Origin: Bacteroidales bacterium | Lineage (GTDB): Bacteria; Bacteroidota; Bacteroidia; Bacteroidales; UBA932 | Assembly: GCA_017429205.1 (NCBI GenBank) | Contig: JAFRPH010000039.1 | Span: 1-34,812 of the forward strand | Reading direction: 5' to 3' | Length of the DNA stretch: 34,812 nucleotides | Part shown: positions 2 to 32,322 of the stretch, piece after piece | Layout of the letters: each line of letters opens with the position of its first letter | Numbering within the stretch: the first letter of the stretch is position 1 | Position numbers and translations under genes: made by a program | Notes under the pieces: model-generated | Told to the model about the DNA's origin: nothing | The model's input: the letters and a program-made list of their open reading frames with translations, nothing else | The model's database searches: none

Positions 2-1744
2 ATGAAAACTACAGGTATTGTTACGGGTATCGTCTCGAACCTTGTGACCGTACTGGTGGACGGACCGGTGGCGGAGAATGAAATCTGCTACATCGACCTT
101 GCCGGCGTCAAGATGATGGCCGAAGTCATCAAGGTCAACGGCAAGTACGCCTCCGTACAGGTGTTCGAGAGCACCCGCGGCCTCCGGGGCGGCGACAAGG
201 TCGAGTTCGAAGGACGGATGCTCCAGGTCACCCTGGGTCCGGGCCTGCTGTCCAGCGTCTACGACGGCCTGCAGAACGACCTCACCACGATGGAGAGCGT
301 CTTCCTCAAGCGCGGCGAATACACCGACCCGCTGGACCACGAGAAACTCTGGGACTTCACCCCCATCGCCAAGCCCGGTGACAAAGTCGTCGCGGCCGAC
401 TGGCTGGGCGAGGTCAAGGAAGGCTGGCTTCCCCACAAGATCATGGTCCCGTTCTCCTTCCAGGGCACGTACACCGTCAAGTCCGTCGTTCCCGCCGGAC
501 AGTACAACATCGACGCCGTCATCGCGGTCCTGACCGGGGCCGACGGCGAGGATGTCAACGTGACGATGACCCAGAAATGGCCCGTCAAGGTGGCCATCAA
601 GGGCTACAAGGAGAAGCCGCGCCCCAACCGCATCATGGAGACGGGCGTCCGCGTAATCGACACGCTGAACCCCATCGCCGAGGGCGGCACGGGCTTCATC
701 CCGGGCCCGTTCGGCTGCGGCAAGACGGTCCTCCAGCACGCCATCGCCAAGCAGGGCGACGCCGACGTCATCGTGATGGCGGCCTGCGGCGAGCGCGCGA
801 ACGAGGTCGTGGAAATCTTCACTGAGTTCCCGGAACTGATCGACCCGCACACCGGACGCCACCTGATGGAGCGCACCACCATCATCTGCAATACCTCCAA
901 CATGCCGGTGGCCGCCCGAGAGGCGTCCGTCTACACCGCCATGACCCTGTGCGAATACTACCGCGCGATGGGCCTCAAGTGCCTCCTCCTCGCGGACTCC
1001 ACCTCCCGTTGGGCCCAGGCCCTCCGTGAGATGTCCAACCGTATGGAAGAGCTCCCGGGCGCCGATGCGTTCCCGGTGGACCTGTCCGCCATCATCTCCA
1101 ACTTCTACGCCCGTGCGGGCATGGTCGTGCTGAACAACGGCCAGACCGGCGCCGTCACCTTCATCGGCACGGTGTCCCCGGCCGGCGGCAACCTCAAGGA
1201 GCCCGTCACCGAGTCCACCAAGAAGGCCGCCCGCTGCTTCTACGCCCTCGAGCAGAGCCGCGCCGACCAGAAGCGCTACCCGGCCGTCTCCCCGCTGGAT
1301 TCCTACTCCAAGTACCTGGAGTATCCGGAAATCGAGGCGTACCTGGACGAGACCGTCGAACCCGGCTGGGTCGGCAAGGTCAAGACCGCCAAGAACATCA
1401 TCCGCCGCGGCAAGGAAGCCAGCGAGCAGATCAACATCCTCGGCGACGACGGCGTGCCGATGAGCTACCACGTGAACTTCTGGAAATCCGAGCTCGTGGA
1501 CTTCGTCATCCTCCAGCAGGACGCCTTCGACGCGATCGACGCCCTCTGCCCGATCGAGCGCCAGCGCTATATGCTGGACCTCGTGCTGGGCATCTGCGAC
1601 AAGGACTATGACTTCGAGGACTTCGAGAAGTGCCGGTCCTTCTTCAAGGACCTGATCAACGTGCTCCGCCAGATGAACTACTCCGAGTTCCAGGGCGAGG
1701 CCTTCCAGGGCTACCAGGATACCGTCAACCAAATGATTGCATAA
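2..1744 (+). CDS. atpA: V-type ATP synthase/ATPase catalytic subunit A
   Basis: This is the nucleotide-hydrolysing subunit of the cytoplasmic V1 head. ATP turnover here drives, or is driven by, ion movement through the membrane sector. The 580-residue length is normal for bacterial V-type A subunits and includes the non-homologous insert absent from F-type beta. The Walker A motif GPFGCGKT is at residues 235-242, with Cys where many relatives have Ser. The GERANEV segment and the LLADSTSRWAQALREMSNR stretch are also typical. The ATG begins at the second base of the window and the reading frame looks complete, but its upstream region is out of view. The stop lies 4 bases before the B subunit start, so A and B belong to one operon. 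E-type stalk and other small V1 genes are not in the window and are presumably to the left. Confidence 0.97.
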   Translation: MKTTGIVTGIVSNLVTVLVDGPVAENEICYIDLAGVKMMAEVIKVNGKYASVQVFESTRGLRGGDKVEFEGRMLQVTLGPGLLSSVYDGLQNDLTTMESVFLKRGEYTDPLDHEKLWDFTPIAKPGDKVVAADWLGEVKEGWLPHKIMVPFSFQGTYTVKSVVPAGQYNIDAVIAVLTGADGEDVNVTMTQKWPVKVAIKGYKEKPRPNRIMETGVRVIDTLNPIAEGGTGFIPGPFGCGKTVLQHAIAKQGDADVIVMAACGERANEVVEIFTEFPELIDPHTGRHLMERTTIICNTSNMPVAAREASVYTAMTLCEYYRAMGLKCLLLADSTSRWAQALREMSNRMEELPGADAFPVDLSAIISNFYARAGMVVLNNGQTGAVTFIGTVSPAGGNLKEPVTESTKKAARCFYALEQSRADQKRYPAVSPLDSYSKYLEYPEIEAYLDETVEPGWVGKVKTAKNIIRRGKEASEQINILGDDGVPMSYHVNFWKSELVDFVILQQDAFDAIDALCPIERQRYMLDLVLGICDKDYDFEDFEKCRSFFKDLINVLRQMNYSEFQGEAFQGYQDTVNQMIA

Positions 1745-1748
1745 GACC

Positions 1749-3062
1749 ATGAAAGCATACCAAAGAGTCTACACCCAGCTGGAAGGCATCACCAAGGCGA
1801 CGGTTTCGCTCCGCGCGAAGGGCGTGTCCAATGACGAACTGGCCGTCGTGGCCGGCAAGCTTGCCCAGGTCGTGCGCATCAAGGGCGACGTCGTGACCCT
1901 GCAGATCTTCTCCGGCACCGAGGGCATCCCCACCAATGCCGAAGTCACCTTCCTCGGCGAGCCGCCCGTGCTCAAGGTCTCCGACCAGCTCGCCGGCCGC
2001 TTCTTCGACGCCTACGGCCATCCGCTGGACGGCGGCCCCGAGATCGAGGGCGAGGAGCGCCAGATCGGCGGTCCGTCCGTGAACCCGTACAAGCGCCGCC
2101 AGCCGTCCCAGCTCATCCCGACCGGCATCGCCGGCATCGACCTGAACAACACCCTCGTGTCCGGCCAGAAGATTCCCTTCTTCGCCGACCCGGACCAGCC
2201 CTACAACCAGGTGATGGCCGATGTGGCCCTCCGCGCCGACGTGGACAAGATCATCCTCGGCGGCATGGGCCTTTCCAACGACGACTACCTGTTCTTCAAG
2301 AATTCTTTCGAGGCCGCGGGCGCCCTGGACAAGATCATCTGCTTCATCAACACGACCGAGAATCCCCCGGTGGAGCGCCTCCTGGTGCCGGACATGGCCC
2401 TGACCGCCGCCGAGTACTTCGCCGTGGACAAGAATGAGAAGGTCCTGGTGCTGCTGACCGACATGACCCTCTACGCGGACGCCCTGTCCATCGTGTCCAA
2501 CCGTATGGACCAGATCCCGTCCAAGGACTCCATGCCGGGCTCCCTGTACTCCGACCTCGCGAAGATCTACGAGAAGGCCGTGCAGCTCCCGACCGAGGGT
2601 TCCATCACCATCATCGCGGTGACCACCCTGAACGACGGCGACATCACGCACGCCATCCCGGACAACACCGGTTACATCACCGAGGGCCAGCTGTTCCTCC
2701 GCGCGGACACCGACACCGGCAAGGTCATCATCGACCCGTTCCGCTCCCTGTCCCGTCTGAAGCAGCTCGTCCAGAACAAGAAGACGCGCGAAGACCACTC
2801 CCAGGTGATGAACGCCTCCGTCCGCCTGTACGCCGACGCCCAGAACGCGAAGACCAAGCTGGAGAACGGTTTCGACCTCTCCGACTACGACGTCCGCTGC
2901 CTGGACTACGCGAAGGACTACGCCCGCGAACTGCTCGCCATCGACGTGAACATCTCCATCACCGAGATGCTGGACACCGCCTGGAAGCTGTTCGCGAAGT
3001 ACTTCACCCCGGCCGAAACCGGCATCAAGCAGGCCCTCGTGGACAAATACTGGAAGAACTAG
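1749..3062 (+). CDS. atpB: V-type ATP synthase/ATPase subunit B
   Basis: This is the non-catalytic nucleotide-binding partner that alternates with subunit A in the V1 hexamer. The 437-residue length is close to the family norm. The recognisable B-subunit segments include the FFDAYGHPLDGGP region, the LIPTGIAGIDLNNTLVSGQKIPFF region and an SNRMDQIPSKDSMPGSLYSDL stretch typical of the C-terminal ATPase fold. As expected for B, the place of Walker A lacks a GxxxxGKT signature. The ATG at 1749 was chosen over an upstream TTG because it gives the usual MKAYQRVY-type N-terminus and clears the A stop. The gene is followed after 6 bases by subunit D. Confidence 0.97.
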   Translation: MKAYQRVYTQLEGITKATVSLRAKGVSNDELAVVAGKLAQVVRIKGDVVTLQIFSGTEGIPTNAEVTFLGEPPVLKVSDQLAGRFFDAYGHPLDGGPEIEGEERQIGGPSVNPYKRRQPSQLIPTGIAGIDLNNTLVSGQKIPFFADPDQPYNQVMADVALRADVDKIILGGMGLSNDDYLFFKNSFEAAGALDKIICFINTTENPPVERLLVPDMALTAAEYFAVDKNEKVLVLLTDMTLYADALSIVSNRMDQIPSKDSMPGSLYSDLAKIYEKAVQLPTEGSITIIAVTTLNDGDITHAIPDNTGYITEGQLFLRADTDTGKVIIDPFRSLSRLKQLVQNKKTREDHSQVMNASVRLYADAQNAKTKLENGFDLSDYDVRCLDYAKDYARELLAIDVNISITEMLDTAWKLFAKYFTPAETGIKQALVDKYWKN

Positions 3063-3068
3063 ACCCCT

Positions 3069-3680
3069 ATGGCTGTTAAATTCCAATACAATAAAACGTC
3101 GCTGAACGAGATCGGCAAGCAGCTGAAGGTTCGGCAGAAGGCGCTCCCCACGCTGCAGAACAAGGAGAGCGCCCTGCGGCTGGAAGTGCGCAAGGCCAAA
3201 AGCGAGAGCGACCGTCTTATTGCCGACCTGGAAGCCGCCATGGACCGCTACGACTATCTCGCCTCCCTCTGGAACGAGTTCGATCCGGGGCTCGTGGCCA
3301 TCACGGACGTGGACCTGCACACCGTGAAGGTCGCGGGCGTGAAGACCCCGGCCCTCGGGGAAATCCACTACGAGATCCGCCCGTTCAACGCCTTCGCCAA
3401 ACCGGCCTGGTACGCCGACGGCGTGGCCATCCTCAAGGAACTCTCCCGGCTCGGCATCGAGTCGGAAGTGTACCGGGAGAAGGCCCGCATCCTGGACTAC
3501 CAGCGGAAGAAGACGACCCAGAAGGTGAACCTGTACGAGAAGGTCCAGATTCCGGGATTCCAGGAGGCGATCCGCAAGATCAAGCGGTACATGGAGGATG
3601 AGGAGAACCTCTCCAAGGCCTCCCAGAAGATCGTCAAGCAACGCCACGCGGCAGAGGAGGAGGAGGCCTCGGAGGTATGA
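3069..3680 (+). CDS. atpD: V-type ATP synthase/ATPase subunit D (central rotor stalk)
   Basis: Subunit D is the long coiled-coil shaft that turns inside the A3B3 head and couples it to the rotor ring. At 203 residues it has the usual size. Its N-terminal part (QYNKTSLNEIGKQLKVRQKALPTL, roughly residues 5-28) and its C-terminal part (YQRKKTTQKVNLYEKVQIPGFQEAI, roughly 144-168) match the two helical ends of the family, the latter being the conserved VN-ALE/LY-ip region. The stop codon overlaps the next start in an ATGA arrangement at 3677-3680, which indicates translational coupling to subunit I. Confidence 0.93.
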   Translation: MAVKFQYNKTSLNEIGKQLKVRQKALPTLQNKESALRLEVRKAKSESDRLIADLEAAMDRYDYLASLWNEFDPGLVAITDVDLHTVKVAGVKTPALGEIHYEIRPFNAFAKPAWYADGVAILKELSRLGIESEVYREKARILDYQRKKTTQKVNLYEKVQIPGFQEAIRKIKRYMEDEENLSKASQKIVKQRHAAEEEEASEV

Positions 3681-5455
3681 TCAGTCCGATGACCAAATAC
3701 TCCTTCATCCTGCTGAACGGTGAACAGGAAGGCCTGCTGGAGAAACTCCAGGAGATCGGCCTGGTCGATATCACCCGCAGCGTGAAGCCCGTGGACGGGC
3801 CGTCCGGCGAACTGCTCCGCGCCGTGGAGCAGCGGAAGGAACTCGTCCAGTCCCTCGGGAAGATCGTCTTCCCGGAAACGCTCCAGCCCGCCCCGGTCGA
3901 AGGTGACCTCACCTACGCCACCGCCGCGGCGCTGGATACCCTGGAGCAGCTCGGCGAGCAGATGAAGGCCCTCGAGAAAGAGGCCGCCGCCGCTGAGCCG
4001 TGGGGCGCGTTCGACCCGGAACTGCTCAAAAAGCTCTCCGACGCCGGCGTCCCGGTCCAGTTCCATATCAGTTCCGCCAAGTCCTTCAATCCCGAATGGG
4101 CCCGGCAGAACGCTGTCGACATCGTGAAGGAGGCCGACGGCAAGGTGTGGTTCGTCGTGGCCGGTCCGGACACCCTGCCCGACCGCGTCCGCGGCCCGCA
4201 CCGCAGCTTCGAGGCCGTCCAACAGGAAATCGCGGAAGTCCAGGCCGGAATCGACCAGGAAAAGGCGATCCTCCTGACCGCGAAGAAGCGCCAGGACGAG
4301 TTCGAGGCCGAAAGCCGCGAGAGGCTCACCAAGCTGGACCTCTACCTCGCCAAGCAGGCCGCCGTCCCCGCCGCGGAGAACACCATCGTCACCCTTGTGG
4401 GCTACGCCCCCACGGAGAACGAGGAGGCTGTCACCAAGGCCATCGAGGAAACCGGCGTGTACTATCTCAAGGACGAAGCGCAGGTGGACGACAACCCGCC
4501 CATCAGCTTCCGCAACAACAAGTTCGTGAAGATGTTCGAGGTCCTCACCGACATGTACGGCCGCCCGGCCTACAACGGCTTCGACCCGACGCCCTTCATC
4601 GCCGTCTTCTTCCTGCTGTTCTTCGCCTTCTGCATGGGCGACGCCGGCTATGGGTTGCTGCTCATCGTCATCGGCCTGCTGCTCAAGAAGGTGGACAGTT
4701 TCAAGGGCTTCGCCCCGCTCGTGGTCACCCTGGGCATCGGCACCACCGTCATCGGCTTCCTGTTCCATACGTTCTTCTCGATGGACATTGCCGAATGGTC
4801 CATCTTCCAGGGCTTCCCCTTCCTGCCTTCCAAGATCGCAGGCTACGACGGGACGATGGTCCTCGCCCTCATCATCGGTATCGTGCACCTGTGCCTCGCC
4901 ATGATTGTGAAGACCTACAACGCGACGAAAGTCAAGGGCTTCGCGAACTCGCTCGGCACCTGGGGCTGGACACTCCTGATCGTCGGCGGCACCATCGTCG
5001 GCGCCCTCGCTCTCGTGGGCGTGCTGGACAAGGCGGCGACCAAGTGGATCGTCATCGTGATCGGCGTGCTGTCCGCCATCGGCATCTTCCTGCTGAACGA
5101 CCTGCACCGCAACCCGCTCATCAACATCGGCTCCGGCCTCTGGGAGAGCTACAACACGGTCACCGGTCTGCTCGGCGACGTCCTCAGTTACCTCCGCCTG
5201 TATGCGCTCGGCCTCGCCGGCGCGATGCTGGGCAAGGCTTTCAACGACATCGGCCTGATGATCCTCGGCGACGGGAAGTCCATCCCCCTGTGGATCCCGT
5301 TCCTCCTGGTGGTCATCATCGGACATGCCCTCAACATTGCGATGTGCGCCCTCGGCGCCTTCGTGCACCCGCTGCGACTGAACTTCCTGGAGTTCTTCAA
5401 GAATTCCGGCTACGAAGCCGCAGGACGTACCTACAACCCGTTAAAGAAACAATAA
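3677..5455 (+). CDS. atpI: V-type ATP synthase/ATPase subunit I (membrane stator)
   Basis: This is the stator subunit (V-type a/I family) that holds the ion half-channels against the rotor ring in the cytoplasmic membrane. The protein has 592 residues. About the first 280 are a hydrophilic, partly coiled-coil cytoplasmic arm. From about residue 305 there are seven or so hydrophobic segments, beginning with PTPFIAVFFLLFFAFCMGDAGYG, a family hallmark. The essential arginine region lies in the late segment LSYLRLYALGLAGAMLG, followed by the HPLRLNFLEFF motif near the C-terminus. The first ATG (3677) overlaps the D stop. A second in-frame ATG at 3689 is an alternative start that would remove four residues. 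Confidence 0.95.
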   Translation: MISPMTKYSFILLNGEQEGLLEKLQEIGLVDITRSVKPVDGPSGELLRAVEQRKELVQSLGKIVFPETLQPAPVEGDLTYATAAALDTLEQLGEQMKALEKEAAAAEPWGAFDPELLKKLSDAGVPVQFHISSAKSFNPEWARQNAVDIVKEADGKVWFVVAGPDTLPDRVRGPHRSFEAVQQEIAEVQAGIDQEKAILLTAKKRQDEFEAESRERLTKLDLYLAKQAAVPAAENTIVTLVGYAPTENEEAVTKAIEETGVYYLKDEAQVDDNPPISFRNNKFVKMFEVLTDMYGRPAYNGFDPTPFIAVFFLLFFAFCMGDAGYGLLLIVIGLLLKKVDSFKGFAPLVVTLGIGTTVIGFLFHTFFSMDIAEWSIFQGFPFLPSKIAGYDGTMVLALIIGIVHLCLAMIVKTYNATKVKGFANSLGTWGWTLLIVGGTIVGALALVGVLDKAATKWIVIVIGVLSAIGIFLLNDLHRNPLINIGSGLWESYNTVTGLLGDVLSYLRLYALGLAGAMLGKAFNDIGLMILGDGKSIPLWIPFLLVVIIGHALNIAMCALGAFVHPLRLNFLEFFKNSGYEAAGRTYNPLKKQ

Positions 5456-5887
<432 letters not shown>

Positions 5888-5906
5888 GCTCCCAAAACGC
5901 CTTTTC

Positions 5907-5937
5907 AAGCCGGTCTGCCCAGACTGGCTTGTTTTTT
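5907..5937 (+). terminator. Rho-independent terminator of the V-ATPase operon
   Basis: A 10-bp stem AAGCCGGTCT / AGACTGGCTT with one G-T pair and a GCCC loop is followed by G and six T residues. It starts 19 bases after the atpK stop. Confidence 0.85.
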
Positions 5938-5938
5938 G

Positions 5939-5945
5939 TATTTTG
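5939..5945 (+). promoter_or_regulatory. Probable -7 promoter element for the beta-barrel gene
   Basis: TATTTTG sits just after the T-run of the terminator and 20 bases before the start at 5966. It is one base short of the Bacteroidota TAnnTTTG consensus. Overlap with the terminator tail suggests a compact promoter directly after the operon end. Confidence 0.45.
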
Positions 5946-5965
5946 CGGGGAAAACGCATGATGCC

Positions 5966-6622
5966 ATGAGAAAAGTTCTGATCACCCTTGTCGCATTGGC
6001 CGTCGGGATGACCGCCTTTGCCCAGTATGGACCCGGACGCCCCGGCGGCGGACGCGGCGGCTACGGCTACGGACATAACTACGGAGGCGGCGGATACCGC
6101 CCCTCCCGGTACTATATGGACGGTGCCTTCGAAGTGGGTATCATGTTCAACCACTTCAACAGGAACGGGAACACTTACCGGCCCGACCGGCTGGGCTATT
6201 TCGGAGAATATCGGGTGAAGATCAACCCGGTCGTGGACATGGGCCTGCAACTGTCCACCACGTTCGGGAAAGGGTCGTATACCACCTCCGGCGAGCCCTA
6301 TGGCCCGGACGCCCGGTTCTGGCAGGGCACGCCCCTGGTGGTCACGGACTTCAACCTGTTCCCGTACAGCGGCTTCAATCCCTACTTCGGCCTGGGCGTC
6401 GGCCCGGGATTCGGCTACGAGAAGAGCGAGTTCGCGGACACGGGCGAATGGACCCAGGCGCTCGTGCTCAGCCCCCGCGCCGGCGTCGAACTGTTCGAAT
6501 GCCTGCGCATCAGCGTCCACTACCAGTGGTACCTGAGCAAAGCGTCCACGTTCTCTCACATCGGCTTCGGCATCAGCTGGGCGTTCAATACGGGCGGCGG
6601 CGGAAGGCCGATGAGAAGGTAA
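5966..6622 (+). CDS. Secreted outer-membrane beta-barrel protein with Gly/Tyr-rich N-terminal linker
   Basis: The 218-residue product begins with a clear signal peptide (MRKVLITLVALAVGMTAFAQ, cleavage after AFA-Q at about 19). A short Gly/Tyr/Arg-rich stretch follows at residues 21-47. The rest alternates aromatic and polar residues in the manner of a small (about 8-strand) outer-membrane barrel of the porin-family/OmpA-like type common in Bacteroidota. It ends in an amphipathic strand (IGFGISWAF) followed by a basic GGGGRPMRR tail. The specific function is unknown. ATG 5966 was chosen because it starts the signal peptide directly. The stop TAA shares its last base with the ATG of the next gene (TAATG), implying translational coupling to the AlkZ-related gene even though no functional link is evident. 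Confidence 0.75.
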   Translation: MRKVLITLVALAVGMTAFAQYGPGRPGGGRGGYGYGHNYGGGGYRPSRYYMDGAFEVGIMFNHFNRNGNTYRPDRLGYFGEYRVKINPVVDMGLQLSTTFGKGSYTTSGEPYGPDARFWQGTPLVVTDFNLFPYSGFNPYFGLGVGPGFGYEKSEFADTGEWTQALVLSPRAGVELFECLRISVHYQWYLSKASTFSHIGFGISWAFNTGGGGRPMRR

Positions 6623-7344
6623 TGTCGTTCGACCGGAAAAAGGAGGCCGGACTCCCGGCAACCGTCGTATCTGCGGAGACGATGCTCGGCGTCATCGAGA
6701 CGCTGGGCATCGTCCCGTTTTTCGAAAATCCCATCCCGGGCTACTCCATCGAGGAAATGACCGCCCGGGAGAACTGGTTCGACGGCCAGGAGGACCTGCG
6801 CAAGACGCCCTGGGACTGGAAGATTCCGGTCGTCCAGAGCGGGGACGTCGCCTACGGCAAGTTCCTCTGGGGCGGCAAGGCCGCCTTCGCGACGGTGGAA
6901 TGGTATGCCGAGCTGATGAACTGGCGGCGGAGCATGGAGAAGTACCAGCCGACGGCCGAGCAGCGGCAGGTGATGGAGTATCTGGCTGAGCACGGCAGCA
7001 TCGGCATCAAGGAAATCCGGGCGCTGCTGGGCGTGAAGAAAAGTGCGGCCGACGCCCTGATGACGCGCCTGCAGATGCAGTGCCGCGTCGTCACCGGCGA
7101 CATCACGCGCGTCTACCGCGGTCCCGACCTCCACTACAACGGCTGGCAGGTTTCCTCCTTCTGCACGCCGGAATCCCTCTTCTGTGTCGATGCCATCCCC
7201 GGCCCCGGCGGCTTCCCCTTCGGCGAAGCCCGCACCCTCGACGTGGACCACTCCCCCGCCGAATCCCTGGCCCGCCTCACCCGCCACATCCGCACCATCG
7301 CCCCCACCGCCACCGAAAAGCAAATCCTGAAAATGCTCCAATAA
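6622..7344 (+). CDS. AlkZ-related winged-helix protein
   Basis: This 240-residue cytoplasmic protein resembles the Bacteroidales AlkZ-related family, which is itself related to the HTH_42/AlkZ-type DNA glycosylases that unhook crosslinks. Segments that support this include GIVPFFENPIPGYSIEEM (about 29-46), PWDWKIPVVQSGDVAYGKF (about 61-79), a winged-helix-like part IGIKEIRALLGVKKSAADALMTRLQMQ (about 128-154), and the ITRVYRGPDLHYNGWQ segment (about 160-175). I recall the family from such conserved motifs; no glycosylase activity is established for it to my knowledge. The start overlaps the stop of the barrel gene by one base. It has no signal peptide or membrane segment. Confidence 0.72.
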   Translation: MSFDRKKEAGLPATVVSAETMLGVIETLGIVPFFENPIPGYSIEEMTARENWFDGQEDLRKTPWDWKIPVVQSGDVAYGKFLWGGKAAFATVEWYAELMNWRRSMEKYQPTAEQRQVMEYLAEHGSIGIKEIRALLGVKKSAADALMTRLQMQCRVVTGDITRVYRGPDLHYNGWQVSSFCTPESLFCVDAIPGPGGFPFGEARTLDVDHSPAESLARLTRHIRTIAPTATEKQILKMLQ

Positions 7345-7353
7345 AGGTTTGTT

Positions 7354-7545
7354 GGGTCCGGGGGTTTCCCCTAGCATATTGCAAAAGAAAAAAGTATAGA
7401 GGATTCGTAACCCTGGAGCGGAGCGACGGAGGGGGTCCGGGGGTCTTCCCTAGCTAATGTAAAAGAAAAAAGTTTAGAAGACCCGTAACCTTGGAGGCGA
7501 AGCCGACGGAGGGGGTCCGGGGGTCTTCCCCCGGCTTATATAAAC
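7354..7545. repeat. Tandem 79-80 bp intergenic repeat, about 2.4 copies
   Basis: Three units start at 7354, 7433 and 7513 with the core GGGTCCGGGGGTYTTCCC. The first two continue through an A-rich AAAAGAAAAAAGT stretch, a GTAACCYTGGAG stretch and a GACGGAGGG stretch. The third stops after its first third and runs into the terminator. Copies differ by scattered substitutions and a one-base indel. There is no long ORF across the unit. It lies between the AlkZ-related stop and the minus-strand tRNA terminator. Confidence 0.85.
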
Positions 7546-7701: not shown

Positions 7702-7704
7702 TTT

Positions 7705-8082
7705 TTATTTCAGAAATACGAAAAAAACAGCCAGGATGAGGCAGAAGAAGGCGGCGACGTGGTTCCATTGCACGGGTTGGCCTTTGAAAAGAAAGGTGAC
7801 GATGATGGTGAAGACGGTTAGGGAGATCACCTCCTGGATCACCTTGAGCTGCATCAGGTTGAAGGGACCGCCGTTGCCGTTGAAGCCGATCCGGTTCGCC
7901 GGGACGGTGAGGCAGTACTCGAAGAAGGCGATGCCCCACGAGAAGAGGATGATGAGGATGAGCGGCCAGCCGGTGGAGATCTTCATCTCCTGGAGTTTGA
8001 GATGACCGTACCACGCGAATGTCATGAAGACGTTCGAGAACACGAGCATGATGACGGTCCAGATGCCTTGCTGCATAATCAT
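7705..8082 (-). CDS. DUF486 (DMT-like) small membrane protein
   Basis: The 125-residue protein has four hydrophobic segments at about 6-26, 39-58, 84-101 and 107-124. The pattern FMTFAWYGHLK, the SWGIAFFEYCLTVPANRIG segment and FNLMQLKVIQEVISL are characteristic of DUF486, a family in the drug/metabolite transporter superfamily. Substrate and role are unknown; it is an inner-membrane protein. The start may be the first Met (8082) or the third residue Met (8076). It is transcribed divergently from the phosphohexomutase gene, with both promoters inside a 53-base gap. Confidence 0.85.
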   Translation of the reverse strand: MIMQQGIWTVIMLVFSNVFMTFAWYGHLKLQEMKISTGWPLILIILFSWGIAFFEYCLTVPANRIGFNGNGGPFNLMQLKVIQEVISLTVFTIIVTFLFKGQPVQWNHVAAFFCLILAVFFVFLK

Positions 8083-8083
8083 T

Positions 8084-8115
8084 TTTGGATTTGGGGCGCA
8101 AATTTAATACTTTTG
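8084..8115 (+). promoter_or_regulatory. Promoter of the phosphohexomutase-DUF1343 operon
   Basis: TTTG (8084-8087), a 20-base spacer and TACTTTTG (8108-8115) match the Bacteroidota promoter consensus. Expected initiation near 8121 leaves a leader of about 15 bases before the chosen start at 8136. Confidence 0.75.
8099..8106 (-). promoter_or_regulatory. -7 element for the DUF486 gene
   Basis: On the minus strand TAAATTTG fits TAnnTTTG exactly and ends 16 bases before the ATG. It lies between the -33 and -7 boxes of the opposing promoter. Confidence 0.55.
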
Positions 8116-8135
8116 TAAGATAAATGAAAGAGACA

Positions 8136-9548
8136 ATGACCCTCATCAAATCCATTTCCGGCATCCGCGGCACCATCGGTGGCGCTCCGGGCAACGCCCT
8201 CACCCCTGTCGATATCGTCAAATTTACCGCGGCGTACGCCGCCACCCTCCCCCAGCGGAAGCCGCAGCCGAACGGCGAGCGGTATAAAGTCGTCGTAGGC
8301 AAGGACGCCCGGTTGTCGGGCGACATGGTGGAACAGCTCGTCGTGGGCACCCTGATGGGCTGCGGCATCGACGTCGTCAAGTGCGGCTTCGCCTCCACCC
8401 CGACCACCGAGATGGCCGTCCTGTTCGCGAAGGCCGACGGCGGCATCATCCTGACCGCCAGCCACAATCCGCGCCAGTGGAACGCCCTCAAGCTCCTGAA
8501 CGACAAGGGCGAGTTCCTTACCGCGATGGAAGGCCAGGCCGTCCTGGACCTCGCCGCCTCCGAGGAGTTCTCCTTCGCGGAGGTCGACAACCTGGGCACG
8601 GTCGAGGAAGAGGATTTCACCGACAAGCACCTGGACGCCGTCCTGGCCCTGCCGGCCGTGGACGTGGAGGCCGTGAAGGCCGCGAACTTCACCGTCGTGG
8701 TGGACGCGGTCAATTCAGTGGGCGGCATCATCATGCCGCGCCTGCTGGAACGCCTCGGCGTCAAGTGCGTGGAACTCAACTGCAATCCCACGGGCGACTT
8801 CGCCCACAACCCGGAGCCGCTGCCCGCGAACCTCGTGGACCTGTCCCGCACCGTCGTCCGCGAGCAGGCGGACCTCGGCGTGAGCGTGGACCCGGACGTG
8901 GACCGGCTCGCCTTCATTTGCGAGAACGGGGACCCGTTCGTGGAGGAATACACCCTCGTGAGCGTCGCCGACTACCTGTGCGAGCTCGCCCAGAAGGCCG
9001 GAAAGCCCATCGCCACCGTCTCCAACCTGTCCTCGACCCGCGCCCTCCGCGACGTGACCGAGGCCCACGGCGGCATCTACTACGCCTCCGCGGTGGGCGA
9101 GGTCAACGTGACCACCCAGATGCACCGGGTGAACGCCCTCATCGGCGGCGAAGGCAACGGCGGCGTCATCTACCCGGCCATCCACGCCGGCCGCGACGCG
9201 ATGGTGGGCGTGGCCCTCTTCCTGTCGAACCTGGCCCACAAGAAGATGAAGGTCAGCGAACTCAAGAAGACCTACCCGCAGTACTTCATCGCCAAGAACA
9301 AGATCCAGCTCAGCGACGCCGCCCTCATCGACCGCATCCTCTCCGAGCTCAAGAAGATCTACGCCAACGAGGACATCAACGACATCGACGGTGTCAAGAT
9401 CATCTTCGAGGCCAAGAAGGAATGGGTCCATCTGCGCAAGTCCAACACGGAGCCCATCATCCGCATCTACGCGGAGGCCGGCACGATGGAGCGCGCCGAA
9501 GCCCTCGCTAACGAGGTCATCGCCGTCGCGAACAAGATCATCGGCTGA
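8136..9548 (+). CDS. glmM: Phosphoglucosamine mutase-type alpha-D-phosphohexomutase
   Basis: The enzyme interconverts sugar 6- and 1-phosphates, here most likely glucosamine-6-P to glucosamine-1-P for UDP-GlcNAc and peptidoglycan synthesis. All superfamily signatures are present: the phosphoserine loop TASHNP with catalytic Ser109, the metal site DPDVDR (Asp252, 254, 256), the sugar-recognition GGEGNGG loop, and the phosphate-binding RKSNTEPIIR segment near the C-terminus. Length is 470 residues. I chose the second ATG (8136) because the product then starts MTLIKSISGIRGTIGG, as I recall for Bacteroides homologues; the ATG at 8124 would lie almost on the predicted transcription start. Phosphomannomutase or phosphoglucomutase activity cannot be excluded from sequence. 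Its stop overlaps the next ATG (TGATG). Confidence 0.88.
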   Translation: MTLIKSISGIRGTIGGAPGNALTPVDIVKFTAAYAATLPQRKPQPNGERYKVVVGKDARLSGDMVEQLVVGTLMGCGIDVVKCGFASTPTTEMAVLFAKADGGIILTASHNPRQWNALKLLNDKGEFLTAMEGQAVLDLAASEEFSFAEVDNLGTVEEEDFTDKHLDAVLALPAVDVEAVKAANFTVVVDAVNSVGGIIMPRLLERLGVKCVELNCNPTGDFAHNPEPLPANLVDLSRTVVREQADLGVSVDPDVDRLAFICENGDPFVEEYTLVSVADYLCELAQKAGKPIATVSNLSSTRALRDVTEAHGGIYYASAVGEVNVTTQMHRVNALIGGEGNGGVIYPAIHAGRDAMVGVALFLSNLAHKKMKVSELKKTYPQYFIAKNKIQLSDAALIDRILSELKKIYANEDINDIDGVKIIFEAKKEWVHLRKSNTEPIIRIYAEAGTMERAEALANEVIAVANKIIG

Positions 9549-10615
9549 TGTTCTCCTTCCGTACCACCCCCCTCGAGGACCAGCTGGACCGGACCCTTCA
9601 AGAGGGCCGGATCGGCTGCTTCTGCACGCAGAACTGCTGGGACACCGGCCGCAGCCGCTGGATGTACGACATCTTCCGGCAGCGGGGCAACCTGCAGGTC
9701 GTCTTCACGCCCCGCGACGCGGAGCTCACCCCAGGCACGAACCACATCGACTTCGACCTGGAACGGCTGCAGGGCCTGAACGCCGTCGTGGTGGAAATCC
9801 AGGACGTGGGCGTCCGCTACTTCAACTACACGAAGGACGTGATGCGGCTGATGGAGATGCTGCAGCTCCTCGGCGAAGACGCCCCCTCGCTCTATGTCGT
9901 GGACCATATCAACCCCTCCGGCCGCGTGGTCGAGGGCACGATCCCGGCCGTCGTGGGCGAGATGTTCGTCCCGAAGGTCGCCCATCGGCACGGGCTCACC
10001 CTCGGAGAGCTCGTGAACCTGTACGCCGGCGAGATTGGCGCAAAGTTCCCGATCCACATCATCTCGGCGCGTGCGACGGATTCCAACCGGCAGCTGCTGC
10101 CTTGGACCATCGCGCCCGCCTCCGACATCCCGGGCCTGTTCAGCTCCTACCTGTACAGCGGCGGCGGCCTGTGGAACAACACGACCGTGACGCCCGGCAT
10201 CGGCACGGCGCGCCCGTACGAGTACATCGGTGCCCCCTTCGTGCGTCCCGGCCTGCCCGTGGACCTGCCCGTGGTCGAAGGCGCGATCCTGCGGCCCTGC
10301 TCCTTCACGCCGGCCGCGGGCCGCTACGCCGGCGAGCGCTGCCAGGGTTTCCAGATCATGCTCCTCCCCGGCGAGGACTACCACAGCCTGATGCACACCC
10401 TCCGCCTGATGCGCTGGTTCACCGAGCACTACTCCGCCTTCGAGTTCGAGGAAGCCTTCTGGACCAAGCTGGCGGACCCCGTGCTGGAAGAATACCTCAA
10501 GGGTTCCATCCCCTTCGACGTCGCCCGCGAGCACATCAAACTGGAAGAGCAGAAATGGATTCGCAAGGCCAAACGCTATCTCCTGTACGACGATCAGCCG
10601 TATCGGATGAAATAG
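9548..10615 (+). CDS. DUF1343 (NamZ-like) protein, divergent and without signal peptide
   Basis: DUF1343 proteins include NamZ, an exo-beta-N-acetylmuramidase that removes terminal MurNAc from peptidoglycan fragments. Family features seen here are EIQDVGVRYFNYTKD (about residues 81-95), DHINPSGRVVEGT (about 120-132), the RHGLTLGELVN segment (about 148-158), the LWNNTTVTPGIGTARPYEYIGAPFV region (about 211-235), and a C-terminal QGFQIMLL region. Two things are odd. There is no signal peptide, unlike many Bacteroidota members. Also, where the family usually has an SPEHG-like motif, this protein reads TPRDAEL at about residue 56. The start overlaps the mutase stop, so the two are translationally coupled, linking amino-sugar phosphate metabolism with muropeptide turnover. 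Activity on MurNAc is inference. Confidence 0.75.
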   Translation: MFSFRTTPLEDQLDRTLQEGRIGCFCTQNCWDTGRSRWMYDIFRQRGNLQVVFTPRDAELTPGTNHIDFDLERLQGLNAVVVEIQDVGVRYFNYTKDVMRLMEMLQLLGEDAPSLYVVDHINPSGRVVEGTIPAVVGEMFVPKVAHRHGLTLGELVNLYAGEIGAKFPIHIISARATDSNRQLLPWTIAPASDIPGLFSSYLYSGGGLWNNTTVTPGIGTARPYEYIGAPFVRPGLPVDLPVVEGAILRPCSFTPAAGRYAGERCQGFQIMLLPGEDYHSLMHTLRLMRWFTEHYSAFEFEEAFWTKLADPVLEEYLKGSIPFDVAREHIKLEEQKWIRKAKRYLLYDDQPYRMK

Positions 10616-28643: not shown

Positions 28644-29231
28644 ATGGCAGAAAAGAAGAAAAAAGATAATGAAAGCAAGGACCTCTCGAAGGTTCTCAAG
28701 GAAGTCGAAGAACTGAAGAAACAGGTCGAAGAGGCCGAGAAGAAGGCCGCGGAAGCCGAGGCCAAGGCGGCCGAGACGGAGGCCAAGATGGCCGAAGCCG
28801 ACGCCAAGGAGGCCGAGCGCAAGAACGAGTACCTCCGTCTGATGGCGGAGTTCGACACGTTCCGCCGCCGCACCGCCGAGGAGAAGCTGGAGCTGGTGAA
28901 ATCGGCCTCGGCCGACACCATCAAGGGCCTCCTCCCCGTGCTGGACGACTGCGAGATCGCCCTCTCCCAGCTGGAGAAGACCGAGGGCAACGAGGCGGCC
29001 ATCGAGGGCGTGCAGCTCATCTTCAACAAGCTGATGGGCTACCTGAAGACGAAAGGGCTGGAGCGGATCGAGGCCAAGGGCGAGGTGTTCGACACCGAGC
29101 TCCACGAGGCCGTCACCCTCTTCCCCGCCCCGTCCGAGGACCTCAAGGGCAAGGTCATCGACGTGGCCCAGACGGGCTACACCCTGGGCGGCAAGGTCCT
29201 TCGCTTCGCTAAAGTGATCGTGGGAGCATAA
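28644..29231 (+). CDS. grpE: GrpE nucleotide-exchange factor
   Basis: GrpE releases ADP from DnaK and so drives the Hsp70 cycle in the cytoplasm. The 195-residue product has a long Lys/Glu/Ala-rich coiled coil (about 10-65). The family core follows: [26 protein letters not shown] (about 69-94), [12 protein letters not shown], and the C-terminal beta domain with [43 protein letters not shown]. The ATG at 28644 is the only plausible start. dnaJ begins 4 bases after its stop. dnaK is not adjacent, as is usual in this phylum. Confidence 0.97.
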
Positions 29232-29235
29232 CGAT

Positions 29236-30420
29236 ATGGCACAGAAAAGAGACTACTACGAGGTATTGGGCGTGACCAAGTCGGCGTCGGCCGACGAGAT
29301 CAAGGCCGCATACCGCAAACTGGCGCTGAAATGGCACCCGGACCGCTGGGTGAACGCCTCCGACGCGGAGAAGAAGACCGCCGAGGAGAACTTCAAGGAG
29401 GCGGCCGAAGCGTATTCGGTGCTCAGCGACCCCGACAAGAAGGCGCGCTACGACCAGTTCGGCTTCGCCGGCGACCAGATGGGCGGCGGCGGTGGCTTCG
29501 ACTTCGGCGGCTTCGACCTGAACGACATCCTCCGGAACGTGTTCGGCGGCAGCTTCAACTTCGGGGGCGGCGGCTTCGACTTCGGCTTCGGCGGCGGCTC
29601 GCAGGGCCAGTCCCAAACCCGCACCTACCGCGGCCGGGACATCCGCACGAGCGTCAAGCTCACCCTGGAGGAGATCGCCACCGGCTGCGAGAAGGAAGTG
29701 ACCATCGAGCGCAACCGCCCCTGCCCCGACTGCGGCGGCAAGGGAACCAAGAACGCTTCCGATGTCAAGACCTGCCCGAACTGCAACGGCCGCGGCCAGA
29801 CCCAGCGCGTGGTGAACAGCCTCTTCGGCCGGACCGTCGCCCTCGAAACCTGCCCGCAGTGCGGCGGTGAAGGCAAGGTCATCACCAATCCCTGCCGGCG
29901 CTGCAACGGCACAGGCCTGGAGCGCCGCCGCGAGACGGTGCGGGTGAAGATCCCCGCCGGCGTCGAGGAAGGCATGCAGGTGACCGTGCGCGGCGAAGGC
30001 CACTCCGCCATGCACGGAGGCACGAACGGCGACCTGCTCGTCGTCATCAAGGAGGAGACGCACTCCAACCTCCGCCGCGATGGGAACAACCTGTTCTACA
30101 CGCGGATCATCTCCGTGATGGACGCGATGCTGGGCTGCGAGCTTTCCGTCCCCTGCCTGGACGGCAGCTACAAAGTGAAACTGGACCCGGGCACCCAGTC
30201 CGGCACGGTCATCAAGCTCCGCGGCAAGGGCCTCCCTTCCGTCCAGGGCTATGGCCGCGGCACGGGCGACCTGTACGTGAAGATCCTGGTCTGGATTCCG
30301 CGCAAACTCTCCCGCTCGGAGAAGGAAATGATGGAGTCCATCCGGAACAATACCACCTTCACCCCCGACCTCAGCCGGGACGACAAGGCGATTTTTGACA
30401 AGGAAAAGAATATTTTCTAA
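29236..30420 (+). CDS. dnaJ: Chaperone DnaJ (Hsp40)
   Basis: DnaJ delivers unfolded clients to DnaK and stimulates its ATPase. All class I domains are present in the 394 residues: J domain (1-75) with the HPD motif at 34-36, a Gly/Phe-rich linker (about 80-125), four zinc-binding repeats ([32 protein letters not shown]; about 155-235), and the substrate-binding C-terminal domains. It is transcribed with grpE. The next gene has its own promoter starting directly after the dnaJ stop. Confidence 0.98.
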
Positions 30421-30426
30421 AAAATA

Positions 30427-30458
30427 TTTGCTGAATCCAAAAAAACTTTCTACATTTG
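30427..30458 (+). promoter_or_regulatory. Promoter of rplS
   Basis: TTTG (30427-30430), a 20-base spacer and TACATTTG (30451-30458) are a perfect match to the Bacteroidota consensus, as expected for a ribosomal protein gene. Confidence 0.85.
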
Positions 30459-30464
30459 CAGTCC

Positions 30465-30529
30465 CAAAACGGAGCAACCTCTTGCCCAGGAGTTGAACGG
30501 CAACGTTGCAAGCAAGGAGAATTGAAAAA
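30465..30529 (+). promoter_or_regulatory. Structured leader of rplS
   Basis: The 65-base leader contains the perfect palindrome GCAACGTTGC (30500-30509) and a CAACCTC / GAGTTG hairpin with one bulge. This could be an autoregulatory ribosomal-protein leader, but no known family is recognised. Confidence 0.3.
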
Positions 30530-30904
30530 ATGGATTTGATTAAAGTAGCAGAGCAGGCTTTTGCTGGTGGCAAGGCCGCTGAATTCCCGGAGTTCAAGGC
30601 TGGTGACACGATCACCGTGACCTACCGGATCAAAGAAGGAGACAAGGAGCGCGACCAGAAATTCCGCGGTGTCGTCATCCAGATGAAGGGCGCGGATCCT
30701 TTCACCAAGACCTTTACCGTCCGCAAAGTTTCCGGCGGTATCGGTGTTGAGAGAATCTTCCCGTTCCAGTCCCCGTTCATTGACAGCATCGAAGTGAACA
30801 AGTACGGTAAAGTGCGTCGCGCACGCATCTTCTACCTCCGCGACCTGACCGGTAAGAAGGCCCGCATCAAGGAAAGAGTCTACAAAGCTACTGAAAACGA
30901 ATAA
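30530..30904 (+). CDS. rplS: 50S ribosomal protein L19
   Basis: L19 sits at the interface between the ribosomal subunits. The 124-residue product contains the family segments [58 protein letters not shown], and [21 protein letters not shown]. The ATG at 30530 gives [11 protein letters not shown]; an upstream TTG at 30506 is rejected because it lies inside the leader. tRNA-Arg begins 14 bases after the stop and is probably co-transcribed. Confidence 0.97.
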
Positions 30905-30918
30905 GCCGCAAGGCATCT

Positions 30919-30992
30919 GGCTCCATAGCTCAATTGAATAGAGCATTTGACTACGGATCAAAAGGTTACAGGTTTGAGTCCTGTTGGAGTCA
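30919..30992 (+). tRNA. tRNA-Arg(ACG)
   Basis: It folds as a full cloverleaf: acceptor GGCTCCA/TGGAGTC, D stem GCTC/GAGC, anticodon stem TTTGA/TCAAA with loop CTACGGA (anticodon ACG, which would be edited to ICG to read CGN codons), variable AGGTT, T arm ACAGG-TTTGAGT-CCTGT, discriminator A. CCA is not encoded. Its 3' side borders the accessory island. Confidence 0.94.
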
Positions 30993-30998
30993 CTGAGA

Positions 30999-31036
30999 AA
31001 CCCCGTTGGAGATATCTCCAGCGGGGTTTTTCTTTT
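30999..31036 (+). terminator. Strong terminator after tRNA-Arg
   Basis: The arms AACCCCGTTGGAGAT and ATCTCCAGCGGGGTT pair over 15 positions with one G-T, followed by TTTCTTTTT. It ends the rplS-tRNA transcript. Confidence 0.92.
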
Positions 31037-31113: not shown

Positions 31114-32058
31114 TCATCGCAGTGATGTTTTGAACCTGCGGGGCCACATGGCCTCGACCGAGAGCATGGTCCGGGCGACTTCGTGACCTTTGAGAGCCAA
31201 GTCCTTGAGGGGCGTATCCATCGGGAAGCCGGCCTCTCGGAGCATCAGGGCCTGCTCTTGATAGACCAGGACGCCATAGGTATCGCGAAGGATTCGATCG
31301 GCAGTGTTGTTCCCAAGTGAAGGAATCTCGTCCGGATTCAGTTTGCGGCGGAGAATCTCCGGGAAAAGGCCGATGCGGCCGGGATAATAGAGCGCTCTCA
31401 GGAGTGCAAGGTCGGACATCGATTCCGGGCCGAAATCCGTGAGCCATTCACGCATCTTGTCGGACTCGAACCAGATGGAACCGTCCGTGGAGCCCCGGCC
31501 GAATTGACACAGGGCGGCTTCGTCCAGTCTGTGCCAGCCATCCTTGATGGTCTCCTTGAAACGGTCAAGTTCGGCATATTCAATAATACGGAGCCGGAAA
31601 GACCCATTCAGGTGCCCTGCCATGAAAGTGATTTGGAAGTAGCCGGGGCCGATCTCATTGATGATCTCGTCACGATTCTGCAGAACTCTTTCGGCTATTC
31701 CAATTCCACCGATGCCGGTTTCAAGAACCAGGTCGGTGTCGAAGTTGAAAGATTGAAGGAAGCGGGAGAAAGGCAGGTCCCATTCTACGGGATTGACCCG
31801 TGTCACGCCCGCCAGGTAGAGAAGGAAGGAACTGGTGAGGAAGCCATAGCCCGGACTTGTTACGATGCCTGCGGAGCGTACTTTGACCATCACGTCGGAC
31901 AGGAGTTTGATGAAGGCCCAGCGATCCGGGTCAGCATCGGCCCAGTCGAGTTCATCGGAGAGGCGCGCCTGGAGAGCCTCCTTGGTGACCGGAGCCATGC
32001 AGTTGGCCTTAGTCGTTTCCAGGGCGCGTTTGATTTTTGCGAGTAATTGTTTATTCAT
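31114..32058 (-). CDS. Miniature DnaE-like protein (palm/finger segments of DNA polymerase III alpha)
   Basis: The 314-residue frame is intact but covers only part of a DnaE polymerase core. TSPGYGFLTSSFLLYLAGVT then NPVEWDLPFSRFL (residues 67-101) resembles the GPGRGSAAGSLVAYLLGIT...FERFL part of DnaE. FDTD at 106-109 falls where DnaE has its catalytic PDIDIDF. SIWFESDKMREWLTDFGPES then ALLRALYYPG (194-227) resembles the IFQFES..M...L and AL.RPG part, and YGVLVYQEQALML (261-273) the finger motif YGVLVYQEQVM. The PHP, tau-binding and OB parts are absent, and the third catalytic Asp region is not recognisable. It could be a degenerate remnant, but there are no stops across 945 bases. It is transcribed towards tRNA-Arg. 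Function unknown. Confidence 0.7.
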   Translation of the reverse strand: MNKQLLAKIKRALETTKANCMAPVTKEALQARLSDELDWADADPDRWAFIKLLSDVMVKVRSAGIVTSPGYGFLTSSFLLYLAGVTRVNPVEWDLPFSRFLQSFNFDTDLVLETGIGGIGIAERVLQNRDEIINEIGPGYFQITFMAGHLNGSFRLRIIEYAELDRFKETIKDGWHRLDEAALCQFGRGSTDGSIWFESDKMREWLTDFGPESMSDLALLRALYYPGRIGLFPEILRRKLNPDEIPSLGNNTADRILRDTYGVLVYQEQALMLREAGFPMDTPLKDLALKGHEVARTMLSVEAMWPRRFKTSLR

Positions 32059-32094
32059 CTGTGAAACTTTGTTTTATTGGTTTTCGTATATAGT

Positions 32095-32118
32095 GCGGCC
32101 CATGGTACCGGGGGCCGC
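32095..32118 (-). other. GC-rich stem-loop upstream of the DnaE-like gene
   Basis: GCGGCCC and GGGCCGC are perfect 7-bp arms around a 10-base loop, 37 bases upstream of the DnaE-like start. The rest of the 279-base gap (32059-32337) holds a small CTCCT/AGGAG hairpin at 32161-32174, the dyad at 32191, and the promoter of the next gene; I see no gene in it. Confidence 0.45.
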
Positions 32119-32190
32119 AGCTTTCAGGGGTATCAGACTTGTCAAAGACTCTCGGGCAACCTCCTCGTCAGGAGAAGTTACAATTTCTTA

Positions 32191-32202
32191 ATACGAAGTC
32201 GT
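32191..32202. repeat. Dyad TACGA-AG-TCGTA, inverted partner at 33664
   Basis: TACGAAGTCGTA is a 5-bp dyad with a 2-base spacer. TGCGACTTCGTA (33664-33675) is a one-mismatch version in the opposite orientation, and 12 bases (AATACGAAGTCG and its complement) are shared exactly. The pair brackets the DUF1653-fusion and PD-(D/E)XK genes. Confidence 0.4.
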
Positions 32203-32291: not shown

Positions 32292-32322
32292 TTGCAAAAA
32301 CGCCAACGATTTCATACATTTG
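32292..32322 (+). promoter_or_regulatory. Promoter of the arm-DUF1653 fusion gene
   Basis: TTGC (32292-32295), a 19-base spacer and TACATTTG (32315-32322) match the Bacteroidota pattern. The ATG at 32338 follows after a leader of about 10 bases. Confidence 0.65.

Follow-up and report, generated by a model that had tools for sequence, protein, structure and literature searches.

The window analysed here is a stretch of 34,812 nucleotides of contig JAFRPH010000039.1 from a Bacteroidales bacterium, and the gene under study, termed mini-DnaE, is a 314-residue frame in it that resembles DnaE, the alpha subunit of DNA polymerase III. The analysis revealed that mini-DnaE is a miniature, selected, DnaE-derived protein and not a decaying fragment, and it probably serves, without catalysis of its own, in a so far undescribed defence-like module travelling among gut Bacteroidales. 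The fold, the loss of catalytic residues, the purifying selection, the gene linkage and the exchange of nuclease-like genes are supported by computation. At about even chances, mini-DnaE is a catalytically inactive palm-and-finger homologue of the C-family polymerases carried in a mobile module, and would control, together with a divergently transcribed partner, a nuclease that acts against replicating foreign DNA or kills the cell.

Similarity to DnaE, fold and active site

The similarity of mini-DnaE to DnaE was analysed by profile search. Both the finger family (PF17657, E 2.6e-14) and the palm-containing 'NTPase' domain (PF07733, E 2.5e-8) exceeded their Pfam gathering scores, the DnaE model of NCBIfam (TIGR00594) matched at E 7.8e-21 over two stretches and far under its full-length cut-off, and the best DnaE chain of the PDB was found at E 8.3e-13. 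These matches, far above chance, indicate that the similarity is real and that mini-DnaE is not an ordinary DnaE. The result is in accordance with a first-pass annotation of the window, which had noticed the DnaE likeness, the intact frame without stops and the tRNA-Arg beside it; the tRNA lies 120 bases from the 3' end of the frame (Table 1). The loss of the PHP, tau-binding and OB domains stated in that annotation was confirmed and the thumb is also gone, none of these parts being found in mini-DnaE by Pfam or in profile, multiple and structural alignments. A structure overlay on DnaE, proposed there as a check, showed a confident fold in which palm and fingers span nearly the whole protein; the structural alignment to Taq DnaE begins at Taq residue 306.

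The active site of E. coli DnaE is described as D401, D403 and D555, with H760 as the proposed steric gate (PMC8485763). The profile alignment placed the FDTD of the window (residues 106-109, with D107 and D109) on the first two catalytic aspartates of DnaE, and the first-pass annotation had taken it for a kept metal-binding pair. In the multiple alignment, unlike the profile alignment, hydrophobic residues of mini-DnaE stand at these two positions, and residues 110-112 are mostly hydrophobic in the 89-member alignment. Acidic residues at both 107 and 109 were present in 27 of the 89 members and DxD in 20 of them, and the proposed pair was given up. No conserved acidic residue was seen at the place of the third catalytic aspartate in the mini-DnaE alignments, and the triad positions are not conserved under either alignment. 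The KGH motif, which corresponds to the KSH of the steric-gate helix, is well kept (K in 86/89, H in 83/89), and 19 columns of the 89-member alignment are invariant. Judged by its sequence, mini-DnaE is homologous to the C-family polymerases without being one of them in function; with the fold kept and the known chemistry apparently lost, it would be a pseudo-enzyme.

Family, selection and phylogeny

A search of 5.8 billion proteins at E <= 0.001 gave 811 relatives of mini-DnaE, and 117 of the 120 best listed have 270-350 residues. The search from a distant member added a further branch of about 273-302 residues (120 of 133 matches listed), and a second such search revealed a sister group of 23 proteins having 294-372 residues except one of 210. 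Alignment A4 was made without the proteins of loci L062 and L016.

The dN/dS ratio (nonsynonymous to synonymous substitution rate) was calculated for the window and 21 of the 22 other loci (L016 excluded). Values of 0.085-0.20 were obtained in the 25 closest pairs among these 22 copies, and the median was 0.21 over the 152 of 231 pairs with dS of 0.05-2. This check across homologues, suggested by the first-pass annotation, thus showed purifying selection, with a ratio of about 0.1-0.2 in close pairs. The copy of L015 has a stop 9 codons ahead of the usual one, and the other 21 copies are free of internal stops. In the tree of 16 mini-DnaE and 12 DnaE proteins, the minis lie on one side of a branch with support of 100/100, and the branch that joins them to the DnaE proteins is long (1.29 changes per column). 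The input consisted of 15 of the 89 aligned minis and that of L062, the DnaE set included four proteins of 770-909 residues from elements or plasmids, and the 230-residue DnaE-like piece L069 was excluded. A decaying dnaE fragment, which the short length and the absence of most DnaE domains might suggest, is ruled out for practical purposes by the relatives of the same length, the low dN/dS, the confident fold and the long separate branch, and the earlier argument against simple decay is upheld.

The divergent partner gene

Gene clustering was carried out on 23 loci, namely 21 genome loci, one viral contig and the window. The dominant neighbour of mini-DnaE is a divergent partner of about 195 residues, present in 17 of the 23 loci; the start of a truncated copy is also seen where the contigs of L003 and L006 end, and it is absent in L004, L012, L019 and L020. 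The partner contains an integrase-type arm DNA-binding domain (PF17293, E 4.8e-7) and DUF1653 (E 1.1e-21), the latter in the stead of the Phage_integrase catalytic domain, which was not found in it by Pfam. Among its structure models the best reached a predicted local distance difference test score (pLDDT) of 72 and the other four 44-48, and only DUF1653 matched a solved structure, 3be3, a protein without assigned function.

Across 398 genomes of the host's family the partner was matched at E <= 1e-15 in 29, of which 15 match one part only (arm or DUF1653, within other proteins) and 14 carry the partner proper, that of G471 being cut by the contig end. Mini-DnaE is present in 13 of these 14 genomes (Fisher p 4.5e-19, kinship ignored). 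In the fourteenth, G180, only some 200 bases of contig are left upstream of the partner, too few for mini-DnaE to be seen; a REase-ARP-like gene follows the partner by eye. The TTG-N20-TAnnTTTG form in front of the partner, which we take to be a Bacteroidetes promoter form, was recovered by regular expression from the window and from 14 of 15 further loci checked, in a count made without shuffled control and with L003, L006 and L018 outside the set; the exception is L011, where the partner start is called further upstream.

Exchange of the nuclease-like genes

In 14 of the 17 partner loci the next gene behind the partner lies on the same strand, at a distance of -4 to 20 bases, which indicates that the two are probably co-transcribed. 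The 14 genes fall into eight BLAST clusters, with members of cluster 13 mutually only 25-29% identical. The idea of eight wholly unrelated nuclease clusters had to be softened, as one stretch is common to clusters 13 and 175 (E 4e-6) and another to clusters 135 and 203 (E 0.002). The pattern D-x(n)-E-x-K is typical of PD-(D/E)XK nucleases. It was found in 12 of the 14 genes, compared with 3 among 114 other frames that have 180-380 residues (p 1.7e-12, for a pattern devised after the sequences had been read and a control that excluded clusters 0, 1, 4, 5, 13, 14 and 33); in the window and L008 it is seen by eye only, with a Cys that the pattern disallows. A gene of cluster 3 follows in seven loci, and in L010 it matches RMMBL above and Lactamase_B_2 just below the cut-off. 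The cluster 4 gene of L001 matches REase-ARP only under the cut-off, and the clusters other than these and the REase-ARP cluster gave no convincing Pfam match.

The mini-DnaE proteins of L008, L009, L010 and L015 are 5-7% apart and carry different clusters, while their partners differ by 10-30%. Among the 23 pairs with less than 16% difference between minis, the cluster is different in 20 and the same in 3. The arrangement resembles a constant core whose effectors can be swapped. A mobile, patchy locus in which a nuclease-like gene is exchanged beside conserved genes was found, with Pfam identifying the nuclease in one cluster and the motif doing so in others. The short HAD-like frame at the end of the window is probably a remnant or broken copy, since its relatives in L009 and L011 have 156 residues.

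Distribution and insertion site

Mini-DnaE was found at E <= 1e-25 in 19 of the 398 family genomes, belonging to 3 of 25 genera, and in 0 of 393 genomes of an order sample and 0 of 395 of a phylum sample; the samples overlap slightly, the two empty ones contained no known positive, and the same query succeeded in the family sample. In a single-sequence search of 101 relatives, 95 genomes gave matches, all of DnaE grade (best E 9.6e-17), so that mini-DnaE is patchy even within the genus. Scanning of genome contigs yielded 21 loci, each with a title naming Bacteroidales, Bacteroidia or Prevotellaceae and several bearing names of ruminant samples, and the viral scan gave one locus, the viral contig. 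A phage or plasmid origin was tried by tblastn of 35 phage and 130 plasmid records and rejected, the matches being partial, DnaE-grade, below 60% identity and none covering 80% of the query.

The nearest genome, G001, matches the window at 97.3% over 28929-31000 and shows no long match past 31000, which indicates that foreign DNA starts just after the tRNA-Arg with mini-DnaE as its first gene. The recurrent tRNA-adjacent copies for which the first-pass annotation had suggested a survey were not seen, as only L005 among the other 22 loci, some with short flanks, has a tRNA within 2 kb. Recombinase-like genes (cluster 2) are present in 7 of the 23 loci, and two of three scanned have the catalytic domain. 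A search for the empty site in genus g52 found the flank in G112 rearranged, repeat-bounded and without a clean junction. In L017 (6580-6726 and 11004-11807), and likewise in L021, the module is flanked by an intergenic repeat whose copies are up to 96% identical. The repeat also occurs near a urocanase gene in G112, and the copies are possible recombination sites.

The leader in front of mini-DnaE

The intergenic DNA between mini-DnaE and the partner is conserved. A leader of about 100-150 bases precedes mini-DnaE (or a SLOG gene) in 15 of the 23 loci, that of L003 being degenerate; just about 33 bases stand in its place in L001, L002, L012 and L014, and in the comparison of the 23 loci it is unrecognisable in L004, L018, L019 and L020. 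A core of 21 bases is identical in 11 loci. The three-helix structure drawn from one copy was counted in 13 of the 15 leaders (L003 and L008 excluded), where 91% of cells pair compared to 39-56% when slid and 90.3% when shuffled, and 15 of 500 shuffles reach the observed value. The central hairpin has two two-sided changes, a count that 12 of 500 shuffles reach. RNAalifold showed no covariation gain for the leader and Rfam gave no match to it. These data give at most a weak hint of a hairpin, either in the RNA or in the DNA.

Outside the loci, leader matches of 21-26 bases (E 0.006-0.007) occurred in 2 of the 101 relatives, none of them known to carry mini-DnaE, in a search without positive control, and the single match in viral contigs was the contig already carrying mini-DnaE. 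The N-terminal extensions of P0059 and P0060 resemble by eye the leader read in one frame. A conserved peptide was considered and rejected, because L005 has a one-base insertion and because the 21-base core is shared without any difference by 11 loci.

Other arrangements and defence context

Mini-DnaE has a WYL gene as a neighbour in L004, as shown by Pfam, and in L019 and L020, as shown by clustering. These partnerless loci carry cluster 5 (REase-ARP; L004, L020) and cluster 4 (L004, L019). WYL proteins are described as frequent companions of phage-defence loci (PMC9122601). SLOG (YspA-like) genes lie beside mini-DnaE in L006, L008 and L013. The distant mini-DnaE of L062 also has an adjacent SLOG gene, with WYL-like and nuclease-like genes further on and ArdC-like and primase-like genes in the locus, these four kinds being read by eye. 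PADLOC on ten proteins of the window, L004, L009, L010 and L015 gave no strong match but the WYL gene of L004. On ten hand-picked flanking proteins it indicated a GajB-like helicase in L008 and a PDC-S01 candidate and a WYL protein in L010, and seven had no match at E 1e-5. The L008 helicase (7703-9829), 2 kb from mini-DnaE, matches RTasHel at E 1.6e-106 and GajB at E 1.7e-93.

A small protein with two CxxC motifs, zinc-ribbon-like by eye, follows mini-DnaE in L006 (1844-2200), L008 (5607-5996), L015 (10723-11259) and L022 (4472-4849), and appears fused to mini-DnaE in P0068 (442 residues). In L018, L019 and L020, at about 5846-7387, HigA-like antitoxin genes with an adjoining 106-residue gene were seen by eye near mini-DnaE.

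Table 1: Positions of mini-DnaE, its parts and the neighbouring features in the window
Feature	Position	Strand	Remarks
tRNA-Arg(acg)	30919..30993	+	Insertion site of the window copy
Mini-DnaE, 314 residues	31114..32058	minus	ATG start; C-family polymerase palm and fingers, without conserved catalytic Asp residues
Mini-DnaE, KGH (K290-H292)	31183..31191	minus	Counterpart of DnaE KSH (alignment)
Mini-DnaE, finger part, residues 179-273	31240..31524	minus	With TYGVLVYQEQ (Pfam)
Mini-DnaE, ETGxG (E113-G117)	31708..31722	minus	At or near the site of the DnaE catalytic PDxDxDF (two alignments disagree)
Mini-DnaE, palm part, residues 21-102	31753..31998	minus	GPGRGS of DnaE is SPGYG, FERF is FSRF
Conserved leader	32059..32200	minus	Optional between loci; possible closing stem, central hairpin and G+C-rich hairpin (32095-32118)
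TTG-N20-TAnnTTTG	32292..32322	+	Presumed promoter of the partner operon (regular expression)
Divergent partner, 195 residues	32338..32925	+	Arm-DNA-bind_5 and DUF1653, without recombinase catalytic domain
First cargo gene, 211 residues	32922..33557	+	4-base overlap with the partner stop; motif D..E-V-K by eye only; no Pfam match
Second cargo gene, 274 residues	33686..34510	+	REase-ARP / PDDEXK_13 nuclease, PF22558 E 3.2e-31
Short HAD-like frame, 54 residues	34537..34701	+	PF18143 (HAD_SAK-like) E 0.023, under cut-off

Proposed function and alternatives

In the proposed mechanism mini-DnaE would use its polymerase core fold for recognition without catalysis, the ligand being primer-template DNA, a component of the replisome or a nucleotide. 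Mini-DnaE and the partner would hold back, license or direct a nuclease, so that the module would attack replicating foreign DNA or kill the cell. The two constant genes would thus provide recognition and control, and the PD-(D/E)XK-type gene, sometimes with a second nuclease-like gene, would be the replaceable part. A protein or a DNA structure seems a likelier ligand than a plain deoxynucleoside triphosphate (dNTP), because mini-DnaE keeps the finger-palm fold and loses residues that we take to be phosphate- and metal-binding. We infer sensing, nuclease control and a defence role for the module, the defence role because of the patchiness, the mobility, the exchange of nuclease-like genes and the association with WYL. 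Among the proposals of the first-pass annotation, a possible part of a defence device is the best supported, by the conserved partner and the exchanged nuclease-like genes. A narrower version, a new immune module in which a dead C-family core recognises active replication and releases an interchangeable PD-(D/E)XK nuclease via the arm-type partner, is tentative and somewhat unlikely.

Several observations weigh against the main reading. Apart from the late devising of the D-x(n)-E-x-K pattern mentioned above, the REase-ARP cluster (window, L005) is the one cluster with strong Pfam support, and none of the six members of cluster 4, counted as nuclease-like, has the pattern. The partner lacks a same-strand gene behind it in L001, L002 and L014, and L012 has mini-DnaE without partner or obvious nuclease. 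The distances of mini-DnaE and partner correlate only moderately, with a Spearman coefficient of 0.47, reached by 23 of 2000 permutations, and the two are only partly co-inherited. Mini-DnaE and partner gave no strong match in PADLOC, the best for mini-DnaE being PD-T4-6 at E 0.038. Mini-DnaE has other residues in place of the GRGS arginine and serine and of the arginine of RPG, which are invariant in DnaE and presumably nucleotide-binding there, and this weakens a simple dNTP-sensor reading. Stops were counted in 3 of the 19 genome matches (G228, G197, G289). The G228 match lies on the contig of L015. Those of G197 and G289 lie on the contigs that carry L018 and L020, and as the frames of both loci are stop-free, the stops counted there fall outside the frame.

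Mini-DnaE might instead be a replisome decoy. It would compete with the DnaE of a host or a phage for primer-template or for a partner in the replisome and would slow down replication, the nucleases being separate cargo. In its favour are the whole palm-finger fold, the finger motifs and the KGH counterpart of KSH, all of them kept. Against it, the tau-binding, OB, PHP and thumb parts are all gone, the linkage to the partner and a nuclease-like gene would stay unexplained and a free decoy would presumably harm its own host; the decoy is held improbable. Service of partner and mini-DnaE in integration, excision or replication of the element, with the nuclease as an exclusion gene, accords with a partner arm domain of the kind seen in the recombinase-like cluster 2 genes (7/23 loci), with the window copy beginning at the 3' end of tRNA-Arg and with the ArdC- and primase-like genes of L062. 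Given that the partner has DUF1653 in place of the recombinase catalytic domain, that tRNA adjacency is not recurrent and that the nuclease slot varies while mini-DnaE is nearly constant, we hold this improbable too.

A regulator that binds the shared intergenic DNA or its own leader RNA and sets the expression of the partner-nuclease operon has in its favour the conserved leader between both genes, with its identical core and two two-sided hairpin changes. The eight loci in which the leader is missing or not found, the lack of covariation gain and the shuffles that reach the same count speak against it, and it is judged quite doubtful. An active small polymerase or nucleotidyl-transferring enzyme would require a site rebuilt with E113 and other invariant acidic residues. 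The palm fold is intact and E113, E36 and E212 (89/89) and D165 (88/89) are available for it; the triad positions are unconserved, the thumb is deleted and E113 is replaced in 5 of the 23 sister-group members (P0205, P0207, P0208, P0211, P0212). An enzyme of this kind, which includes the tiny polymerase proposed by the first-pass annotation, is disfavoured and very unlikely.

Comparison with known systems

Mini-DnaE shares with DnaE1-type Pol III alpha the palm-finger fold, PF17657 and PF07733, YGxxVYQEQ and a KSH-like motif. It differs in lacking PHP, thumb, tau-binding and OB domains and the conserved aspartate triad, in the altered GRGS and in size (314 residues compared to 1,257 for the DnaE of G001). 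The DnaE proteins of 770-909 residues from elements and plasmids (L062, L067, L068, L071) are also C-family and from Bacteroidales; that of L062 lies in the same stretch as the distant mini-DnaE and that of L071 on a Prevotella plasmid. Unlike mini-DnaE, they keep PHP and thumb by eye and group with full-length DnaE on the tree. Two of the four, L062 and L067, lack the third aspartate by eye, and such element-borne DnaE genes may be heading to inactivity. The L062 frame (1531-4053, about 834 residues) has PHP and DxD by eye and N for the third aspartate (KLNLLSL), and the L067 protein has 770 residues.

The REase-ARP / PDDEXK_13 nucleases are represented by the second cargo gene of the window (PF22558), although this is only one of several cargo types. 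We know of no polymerase-like gene in a WYL-regulated defence system. The BrxR-type WYL-regulated defence loci (PMC9122601) resemble the loci L004, L019 and L020, and L062 by eye, in having WYL beside mini-DnaE, whereas the ten proteins scanned from the mini-DnaE loci gave no PADLOC system match.

A survey of bacterial polymerases in complete genomes of more than 3,000 species gives, in its account of the C family, four groups only, PolC and DnaE1-3, and calls PHP universal (PMC12926913). The mini-DnaE clade adds an inactive branch to this replicative family, since it is without PHP and the catalytic residues. A literature search of titles and abstract openings, mostly outside subscription journals, found no miniature or inactive DnaE described. 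If the sensor-module reading is true, mini-DnaE would be, as far as these searches show, the first pseudo-enzyme from the family of replicative polymerases, and also the first to serve as a sensor. Sensing of replication coupled to control of a nuclease would, if real, reveal a way for cells to detect foreign replication as such, and the nuclease-like genes exchanged between loci form a ready test set. Catalytically dead relatives are described in the Y family, for example ImuB (PMC12926913). If the module reading is right, mini-DnaE would resemble ImuB and other inactive Y-family polymerases (iPolY), partner proteins that retain a polymerase fold after loss of the catalytic residues (PMC12926913), with the difference that they belong to the Y family and mini-DnaE to the C family.
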